Of a stretch of 64,000 nucleotides of DNA, positions 34,511-37,445 are shown in pieces. The stretch is from an uncultured Gammaproteobacteria bacterium (GTDB lineage: Bacteria; Pseudomonadota; Gammaproteobacteria; Nitrosococcales; Methylophagaceae): the NCBI GenBank assembly GCA_905479075.1, contig CAJQLA010000005.1, forward strand, positions 124,001-188,000, read 5' to 3'. The notes beneath the pieces are model-generated. The model was not told the origin of the DNA, did not search any database, and saw nothing but the letters and a program-made list of their open reading frames with translations. Both the position numbers and the translations under genes were made by a program. Every line of letters starts with the position of its first letter. Within the stretch, counting starts at the first letter, position 1.

Positions 34511-36922
34511 TTACGACGATTTGCTTTCCATATCTGCTATAACATGTGCCATTTGAACTACACTATCAGGGTTAACAGAGACGGTGCTAACACCTTGTTC
34601 AACTAAGAACTTCGTGATTTCTGGGAAATCAGAAGGTGCTTGACCACAAATACCAACATATTTCCCTGCTTTTCTACAGGCAGAAATAGCCATTTCTAGC
34701 ATTTTAAGCACGGCCTCATTACGTTCATCATAATGACCCAATAAGTTAGAGTCTCTATCGACACCGAGTGTAAGCTGAGTCAAATCGTTGGAACCAATAG
34801 AGAAACCATCGACGAGGTCAAGGAATTGGTCAGCTAAAATAACATTAGCTGGAATCTCACACATCAGATAGAGTTTGAGGCCTCTTTTACCACGAACTAA
34901 ACCGTGTGATGCTAACAACTCAATAACTTGCTTCGTTTCAGCAACGGTACGTGCAAAAGGAATCATAACAGTTATGTTATCTAACCCCATTGTCGTACGT
35001 GCAATGCGGAGTGCATTACATTCTAAAGCGAATGATTCGCTGAAGGAATCGCTTAAGTAGCGCGTAGCGCCACGGAAGCCTAGCATTGGGTTTTCTTCTT
35101 CCGGCTCGTAGAGCGGTCCACCGATTAAATTGGCATATTCATTCGATTTAAAATCACTTAGGCGAACAATAACGGGTTTAGGATAGAAGGCTGAAGCGAT
35201 GGTAGCAATACCTTCTGCCAACTTGTGGACATAGAATGAAATCGGGTTAGGGTAACCTGCCATTTTTGGCGCAATTTCTTTTTGAAGCGACTTAGGTAAT
35301 TTATCATAATCAATCAGTGCATTAGGATGGACGCCAATACTGTTGTTGATAATGAATTCCATTCTAGCTAAACCAACACCGGAGTTGGGCATATTACTTG
35401 TTTTAAATGCAATTTCAGGGTTAGCAAGGTTAAGCATGATCCCGGTATTTTTTGGTACAGGAATGCTTGCTATATCTATATTTTCAACATGATGCTTTAA
35501 CGCACCCTGATAAACTGTACCCGTATCACCTTCAGCACAACTTACAGTGACAATGTCACCTGTTTTAATGACTTTGGTCGCTGTATTGGTACTGACAATA
35601 GCGGCGATTCCTAATTCACGAGCAATAATGGCTGCATGACAAGTACGACCACCTCGGTTAGTGACAATCGCACCCGCGATTTTCATTACAGGTTCCCAAT
35701 CAGGATCTGTAATATCCGTAATTAATATTTCACCTGGCCTTAGATCTGCCATTTGACTTGTTTTAAGGATAACGCGCGCTTTACCACTTGCAACTTTACT
35801 ACCGACACTTTTACCTTGAATGATAACTTTGCCTTTTTCTTCAAGGACATGATTTTCCAGCGCTTGTAAAGATTTGCCTGATTCAACTGTTTCAGGACGA
35901 GCTTGAACAACAAACAGTTCACCACTGTCACCATCTTTTGCCCACTCAACATCCATTGGCATCGGACGACCTGCTTTTTTCGAATAATGTTTTTCAATAA
36001 TGACAGCAGTTCTTGCGAGCTCTAATACCTCATCATCATTGATACAAAATTGTTGCTGCTCCTCTATAGGCACTTTAGTATTGACGACTACACCGGTATC
36101 ACCTGAAGGTGAATCTTTCTCAGCATAGACCATTCTTAAAGCTTTGCTACCAAGATTGTGTTTAATGATTGGCTGATATTTAGTATCTAGGGTTGGCTTG
36201 AAAACATAAAACTCATCAGGGTTAACGGCACCTTGTACTACATTTTCACCTAGTCCCCATGCGCCAGTGATAAAGACGATGTCACGGAAACCACTTTCAG
36301 TATCAATAGTGAACATAACACCAGACGAGGCTTTATCAGACCGCACCATTTTTTGTACGGCGATGGCGAGTGCGACACTCATGTGGTCAAAGCCTTGATG
36401 TACGCGATAAGAAATTGCGCGATTAGTAAATAGGGATGCGAAAATCTGGCGGCAGCTATTGATTAACGCTGCTGTACCTGTAATATTTAAATGTGATTCT
36501 TGCTGGCCGGCGAAAGAGGCGTCTGGTAAGTCTTCTGCTGTGGCTGAACTTCGCACCGCGACATCAACGTTTCTGCCATATTCTTCTTCTAGCTTGCTAT
36601 AAGCATCTTCAATTTCAGTAACAATAGCATCGGGCATTGCTGCTTGGTTGATTAATGTACGTATATACTCACCAGTTTTTGCTAATGCTTTAGTATCATC
36701 TACATCTAAGTCATCCAAAGCTTTCGTAATGGGGGCAACAAGGTTGTTTTCGTCTAAAAATATTCGGTAGGCTTCGGCCGTAGTTGCAAAACCATTCGGG
36801 ACATTCACCCCTTCACGACTCAACTCACTATACATTTCACCTAAAGAAGCATTCTTACCACCGACGGTATCAACATCACCAATACTAATATCTGCAAAAA
36901 AACGAATATACTTATAACTCAT
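34511..36922 (-). CDS. ppsA: Phosphoenolpyruvate synthase
   Basis: Converts pyruvate and ATP to PEP, AMP and phosphate for gluconeogenesis. The 803-residue product has the ATP-binding N-terminal domain (GGKNASLGEM, RSSATAEDLPDASFAGQQES), the phospho-His in GGRTCHAAIIARELGI near residue 420, and the PEP-utilising C-terminal barrel with SIGSNDLTQLTLGVDRDS and the catalytic Cys in GICGQAPSDFPE. No ppsR kinase/phosphatase gene lies beside it. The ATG at 36922 has an AGG-type SD upstream. Confidence 0.97.
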   Translation of the reverse strand: MSYKYIRFFADISIGDVDTVGGKNASLGEMYSELSREGVNVPNGFATTAEAYRIFLDENNLVAPITKALDDLDVDDTKALAKTGEYIRTLINQAAMPDAIVTEIEDAYSKLEEEYGRNVDVAVRSSATAEDLPDASFAGQQESHLNITGTAALINSCRQIFASLFTNRAISYRVHQGFDHMSVALAIAVQKMVRSDKASSGVMFTIDTESGFRDIVFITGAWGLGENVVQGAVNPDEFYVFKPTLDTKYQPIIKHNLGSKALRMVYAEKDSPSGDTGVVVNTKVPIEEQQQFCINDDEVLELARTAVIIEKHYSKKAGRPMPMDVEWAKDGDSGELFVVQARPETVESGKSLQALENHVLEEKGKVIIQGKSVGSKVASGKARVILKTSQMADLRPGEILITDITDPDWEPVMKIAGAIVTNRGGRTCHAAIIARELGIAAIVSTNTATKVIKTGDIVTVSCAEGDTGTVYQGALKHHVENIDIASIPVPKNTGIMLNLANPEIAFKTSNMPNSGVGLARMEFIINNSIGVHPNALIDYDKLPKSLQKEIAPKMAGYPNPISFYVHKLAEGIATIASAFYPKPVIVRLSDFKSNEYANLIGGPLYEPEEENPMLGFRGATRYLSDSFSESFALECNALRIARTTMGLDNITVMIPFARTVAETKQVIELLASHGLVRGKRGLKLYLMCEIPANVILADQFLDLVDGFSIGSNDLTQLTLGVDRDSNLLGHYDERNEAVLKMLEMAISACRKAGKYVGICGQAPSDFPEITKFLVEQGVSTVSVNPDSVVQMAHVIADMESKSS

Positions 36923-37092: not shown

Positions 37093-37206
37093 TTATGAAT
37101 TCAACCAACCAATGAAGACAAGCCCTATCCAGAAAATGGATAATGAGAAGATAATTAAAGGAAAATGATCAATGATGAGTTTTTCAATTTGCTCTAGTTT
37201 TTCCAT
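37093..37206 (-). CDS. Unrecognised 37-residue single-span membrane microprotein
   Basis: ATG 37206 is preceded by GGGGAG with a seven-base spacing, an excellent ribosome binding site for a stretch otherwise free of genes. The product starts MEKLEQIEKLIIDHFP and continues in one hydrophobic helix (LIIFSLSIFWIGLVFIGWL, about 17-35) that ends NS. A charged amphipathic N-terminus plus one membrane helix is the layout of many bacterial membrane microproteins that bind larger complexes. I do not recognise a family. It lies between tRNA-Leu and ppsA on the same strand; no obvious promoter of its own was found. Confidence 0.6.
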   Translation of the reverse strand: MEKLEQIEKLIIDHFPLIIFSLSIFWIGLVFIGWLNS

Positions 37207-37255
37207 GCTTGTACTCCCCGAAATAACTTTTTATCAATAACGATATCAGAAGCTT

Positions 37256-37360: not shown

Positions 37361-37445
37361 TGGTACCGGGGGCGGGAATCGAACCCGCACTTCCGAAGAA
37401 ACTGGATTTTGAATCCAGCGCGTCTACCAGTTCCGCCACCCCGGC
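37361..37445 (-). tRNA. tRNA-Leu (anticodon CAA)
   Basis: On the minus strand the 85-base sequence folds as a type II tRNA: acceptor GCCGGGG paired with CCCCGGT, D-arm with GGTAGACGCG, anticodon stem CTGGA/TCCAG around loop TTCAAAA (anticodon CAA, reading UUG), a long variable arm TTTCTTCGGAAGT, T-arm GCGGGTTCGATTCCCGC and an encoded CCA. Long variable arm and anticodon both fit leucine. Confidence 0.97.

Follow-up and report, generated by a model that had tools for sequence, protein, structure and literature searches.

Is an open reading frame (ORF) of 37 residues, lying between a tRNA gene and ppsA in a genome of the Methylophagaceae, a real gene, and if so what might its product do? The window analysed here, a stretch of 64,000 nt, contains the ORF and the following features around it.

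34511..36922, minus strand: ppsA (phosphoenolpyruvate synthase), downstream neighbour of the ORF on the same strand
37093..37206, minus strand, stop codon included: CDS for a 37-aa single-span membrane protein of the A type (family profile E=1.7e-14 in its own genome; 50.6 bits with the A model versus 40.0 with the B model, see below)
37214..37219, minus strand: Shine-Dalgarno sequence GGGGAG, 7 nt 5′ of the ATG, read from the sequence
37224..37237, minus strand: weak FNR-like site TTGATAAAAAGTTA with 3/10 mismatches, at the place of a good FNR box in a few relatives; probably non-functional
37240..37248, minus strand: extended -10 promoter element TGATATCGT, conserved 5′ of A copies
37361..37445, minus strand: tRNA-Leu(caa), upstream neighbour of the ORF; this neighbourhood is not conserved

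A short conserved gene of the Methylophagaceae

An earlier note, made from the sequence, had proposed the position, length and surroundings of the ORF, and these are borne out. The frame occupies exactly 37093-37206, with its ATG at 37206 and its stop at 37093, and encodes 37 residues (MEKLEQIEKLIIDHFPLIIFSLSIFWIGLVFIGWLNS); the GGGGAG proposed as its ribosome-binding site is present 7 nt from the start, and the gene sits between tRNA-Leu and ppsA. The strand, which the note left unstated, is minus for all three, in the order tRNA-Leu(caa), ORF, ppsA. No open frame was found on the plus strand at 37093-37206, nor a terminator-like site in the interval between the ORF and ppsA in the window. 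Linkage to the tRNA is mostly incidental, tRNA-Leu being found within 2.5 kb of the gene in just three of the 48 gene-bearing stretches, the window included.

The product has one membrane span, whose best 19-residue Kyte-Doolittle window (LIIFSLSIFWIGLVFIGWL) scores 2.43, and a charged amphipathic stretch N-terminal to it, confirming the architecture that had been read from the sequence. AlphaFold2, supplied with 31 aligned sequences, predicts helices at residues 2-13 and 15-36 (mean pLDDT 93), a model that says little beyond 'helical'. In 34 members the residues F15, W26 and L29 (window numbering) never vary and G33 hardly does; among 49 more diverse members F15 and G33 are still invariant.

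A protein search of 40 genomes, comprising the window's own and its relatives, gave matches in 21, two of which were weak and outside the genus. With a profile built from 49 sequences, members without internal stops were identified in 44 of 57 Methylophagaceae genomes at E<=1.8e-10, a count that excludes weaker partial rows in G009 and G071 (E=0.025 each); stop-free homologues are therefore found in 43 genomes besides that of the window. Family members are about 34 aa long (34-37), all with a single span, and most are preceded by a plausible ribosome-binding site. The ratio dN/dS (NG86) was below 1 in 198/198 testable pairs, defined by 0.05<pS<0.6 and many of them near saturation, with medians of 0.35 for A copies (116 pairs) and 0.33 for B copies (82 pairs). 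The ORF is thus, with near certainty as judged from sequence comparison, a real gene under purifying selection. Its very short length would suit a chance open frame, a reading to which we give next to no credence, since the conservation of frame, start and residues, together with the dN/dS values, already excludes it. Conservation of frame and start in relatives had been named beforehand as a test able to refute the gene, which it passed.

The RlmD neighbours that carry species names (Methylophaga sulfidovorans, M. thiooxydans, M. aminisulfidivorans and M. muralis), alongside many marine MAGs, place the family in the Methylophagaceae, a group of marine methanol consumers, by sequence relationship. 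At 19 of 80 species-named rlmD loci the small gene is present, including those of M. sulfidovorans, M. thiooxydans and M. aminisulfidivorans; that of M. muralis is on a contig which stops a short distance from rlmD. In the other family of the same order, 0/6 genomes had a credible member. Moreover, among 369 genomes of the class and 398 of the phylum, samples that contain some Methylophagaceae, no full-length member was found outside this family. An apparent distant homologue in G766 (E=1e-4) was rejected as spurious, because just 16 residues match and the frame, of 32 aa, lacks the N-terminus typical of the family; the other class and phylum matches (E>=6.8e-4) were partial, many of them within long frames.

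Searches of Pfam, NCBIfam, PADLOC, PHROGs and PDB sequences returned nothing significant for the family. Of 31 members searched in PHROGs, between 1 and 4 matched each of 16 families (best E=0.0089), and the window protein matched none. The earlier statement that no named family fits thus holds for Pfam and NCBIfam. The titles and opening lines of abstracts in the open-access literature on Methylophaga, cbb3/CcoM and FNR contain no apparent description of the family.

Two paralogues with different promoters

The gene is usually one of two. In 34 of the 48 gene-bearing stretches it is paired, with a gap of 236-308 bp (about 270 bp) in 32 and wider gaps, of 428 and 1053 bp, in the remaining pairs. 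Models of the first (A) and second (B) copies trained on Methylophaga sorted 16/16 first and 15/16 second copies of other genera correctly, and models trained the other way round were right for 18/18 of each. Therefore, the divergence of A and B predates the genera. The window protein is of the A type, and the family profile found no B copy in its genome. The earlier note missed the tandem pair that is usual elsewhere, of which this genome has A alone.

Each copy has its own upstream signature, and in the two aligned sets the interval from A to B contains a terminator-like hairpin. Upstream of A, an extended -10 element (TGnTATnnT, a motif picked after inspection of the alignment) occurs in 38/41 copies versus 0.87 expected from shuffles, and in 0/34 B copies. 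Upstream of B, an FNR/Anr box (TTGATnnnnATCAA) with at most one mismatch occurs in 34/34 pairs versus 0.67 expected from shuffles, in every case at -100 to -70 relative to the start; no A copy has one at this position (0/34). In many B promoters a -10-like sequence (TAATAAT, TAATCA) follows the box by about 22-23 nt, which we take to be the spacing of FNR class II promoters. One paralogue, B, is thus apparently switched on at low oxygen, to judge from its promoter.

The lone A copy of the window, with three of ten positions mismatched, has no FNR box by this measure. The first copies of L030 and L036 carry a perfect FNR box at -38/-37, directly after the -10, and the lone A of L034 has one with a single mismatch in the same place. 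By its placement such a box would be in a repressor position, in these few species only. Among the 14 single copies, an FNR box is in position in L025, L083 and L101; the box of L033 has two mismatches, that of L080 is at -129, L028 has none and L029 is truncated where its contig stops, and the remainder are A-type or undecided. FNR-like genes were found in 51/57 genomes, with two in that of the window. In M. nitratireducenticrescens, for which transcriptomes of oxic and anoxic cells are available, an FNR-like regulator has been studied alongside denitrification genes, according to excerpts of PMC11526790.

Several other features of these loci were observed. Loci L076-L100 (e.g. L087:7562-8173) commonly have a lexA-like gene upstream of the pair and divergent to it, in many cases with a gene for a Y-family polymerase beside it; both names were assigned by eye from sequence. 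LexA control was rejected, as CTG[T/A]-N8-[A/T]CAG is absent from the 350 nt 5′ of the first copy in 48/48 stretches. In most loci (33, e.g. L033:1966-3084) a protein of about 370 aa is encoded between the small genes and rlmD, with weak HEAT-repeat/DNA-alkylation matches and none in NCBIfam. A c-di-GMP-I riboswitch (45.4 bits, above the gathering threshold) is located at L085:7227-7305, slightly beyond the small genes of a Methylophaga locus. The A-B spacer of L030 contains an inserted stretch with a palindrome (GGGTATATACCCG, arms TTGAATGATT/AATCATTCAA), and many MAG contigs (e.g. G008, G019, G024) break at or between A and B, possibly owing to a dispersed repeat. In three loci from which the gene has been lost (L203, L205, L206), an element like the A promoter (TGGTATCTTT/TGATATCTTT) persists before ppsA, as if the A-type promoter also served ppsA in this clade.

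Co-occurrence with the cbb3 oxidase

The gene ccoN, for a subunit of the high-affinity cbb3 oxidase, is present in 53/57 genomes and in all 44 that are family-positive. rlmD could be inspected in 11 of the 13 family-negative genomes. Four of these negatives (G010, G011, G018, G022) have an assembled ppsA-rlmD locus in which the gene is missing or broken, and these are exactly the four genomes that lack ccoN. G011 retains a remnant whose frame breaks inside the membrane helix; at the corresponding site the gene is intact in its sister G003 (100/99 support), which has ccoN. Trees of 42 and 18 rows point to at least two independent co-losses of gene and ccoN, all in one clade.

The other nine of the 57 genomes, all with ccoN, are not judgeable, because contigs end at the locus or rlmD was not found. 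In G009, G044, G052, G060 and G066 the contig stops shortly beyond rlmD in the direction in which the genes are expected; the contigs of G005 and G046 end too early, and rlmD was not found in G047 and G057. If these nine truly lack the gene, the correlation between gene and ccoN would be only one-way. Moreover, the four co-loss genomes are small and from one clade, and three have also lost fnr, so the co-loss could be explained by the loss of a low-oxygen lifestyle. Two of the four are only 81-84% complete.

Neither cytochrome bd nor aa3 oxidase follows the family in this way. CoxA was found in 16/44 positives, and 13/44 have neither CoxA nor CydA (lists intersected by hand); in these cbb3 is therefore the sole oxidase of the three types tested. 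The ccoN-less four have CoxA (three genomes) or CydA (the fourth), and thus these organisms have switched oxidase. The earlier note had guessed at a regulator of transporters, oxidases or stress responses; the co-occurrence with cbb3 and the FNR box of one paralogue narrow this to oxidases. In the stretches examined the gene is never beside a cco operon. Across the phylum most genomes lack the gene, and it is therefore dispensable for cbb3 in general.

On contig C12 of the window genome the second ccoN operon is preceded by a perfect FNR box (TTGATCTAGATCAA, L216:2061-2074), after which come a 196-aa ORF and then ccoN.

A putative role at the oxidase and its alternatives

Small single-span subunits of cbb3 are known: excerpts of PMC10433244 and PMC9264385 describe CcoM, a 36-aa subunit of the Pseudomonas stutzeri enzyme. 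The family resembles CcoM in size (~36 aa), in its single span, in a gene too short for routine annotation and in its link to cbb3, being present alongside it in 44/44 positives while 4/4 judged negatives lack ccoN. The charged residues are placed differently, at the C-terminus in CcoM and at the N-terminus here. We do not file the family as CcoM because sequence homology was not found, a comparison with small oxidase subunits made by sequence only: a search of PDB chains with the family profile at E<=10 did not return the CcoM chain 5djq_N, which the CcoM sequence itself does find. To our knowledge CcoM does not occur as an A/B pair.

A further parallel is found in P. aeruginosa, where, as excerpts of PMC5697931 have it, the cbb3 operon cco1 is constitutive and cco2 is Anr-induced. 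There too a component of cbb3 comes in a constitutive and an Anr/FNR-induced form; however, whole oxidase operons are paired in that case, whereas here it is only a 34-aa protein encoded away from the cco operons. Another oxidase, cytochrome bd, likewise has single-span accessory peptides, CydX and CydH (excerpts of PMC11742914). Of the 44 family-positive genomes, however, 23 have no CydA, and a CydX-like reading was rejected because CydA is present in only 21/44 positives and absent from the window genome (G000). Nor is the protein a substitute CcoQ: its gene does not lie between ccoO and ccoP, and each of the two cco operons of the window genome already contains a CcoQ-like ORF (identified by eye and from its position).

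We infer cbb3 as the partner, and consider it about an even chance that the family is an accessory subunit or regulator of this oxidase, with constitutive and low-oxygen isoforms. Its main competitor, a serious one though on balance unlikely, is a small regulator of some other FNR-controlled membrane process of low oxygen, such as a respiratory complex, nitrate/NO respiration or membrane stress, with gene and cbb3 lost together because the whole lifestyle was lost. An FNR box indicates low oxygen and not a partner, and the absence of FNR from three of the four ccoN-less genomes would suit this. However, FNR fits the distribution less well than ccoN does, since G010 keeps FNR though it has lost both ccoN and the gene, and G042 keeps both with only a degenerate FNR match. 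Moreover, A has no FNR box in most species, yet it is retained where B has been lost.

The length, hydrophobicity and tandem copies of the family are also typical of type I toxin-like hydrophobic peptides paired with an antisense RNA, and the NCBIfam model PepG1 was matched by 5/34 members (best E=0.016), with none of the 34 reaching its cut-off and no match to the window protein. Such a toxin is quite improbable, as the A/B pair is ancient, vertically inherited and in one syntenic place, each copy with its own conserved promoter, no family match was found in a search of plasmids, and Rfam searches of the window stretch and of three relatives gave no antitoxin RNA. The net charge, near zero in A copies and about -2 in B copies and the window protein, argues against it too. 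It is very improbable that the protein regulates an adjoining SulP-type transporter or ppsA. SulP lies directly upstream in 12 loci and ppsA downstream in 14, and the A-type element before ppsA in three gene-less genomes would fit the latter; but SulP, rejected as a partner on this mismatch, is missing from 2/44 positives, including a genome that is 100% complete, and occurs in 4/4 judged negatives, and ppsA is kept in 4/4 negatives and is not adjacent in most positives.

Under the cbb3 reading, the protein would use its conserved helix to dock on the cbb3-type cytochrome c oxidase and would serve either as an accessory subunit or as a regulator of the enzyme's activity or assembly. The A isoform would be made regardless of oxygen, with B joining it once low oxygen has activated FNR; the oxidase would thereby receive an isoform matched to the prevailing oxygen. 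The window genome retains the A isoform only. That this amounts to an undescribed oxygen-controlled isoform switch, in which ancient A and B subunits of about 34 aa, one constitutive and one FNR-induced, are swapped on the cbb3 of the Methylophagaceae, is a tentative suggestion. Small oxidase-associated membrane proteins are of an already known kind; the unusual feature would be the oxygen-switched isoform pair.

If this is true, these proteins would form a new family of small subunits of cbb3 oxidases, and oxygen tuning would be achieved by swapping a 34-residue protein instead of whole operons. It would also mean that regulation, synteny and co-loss together can give a testable function to a gene below the length that routine callers accept. 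Species of Methylophaga are in culture, which makes such a role in this family practical to test.
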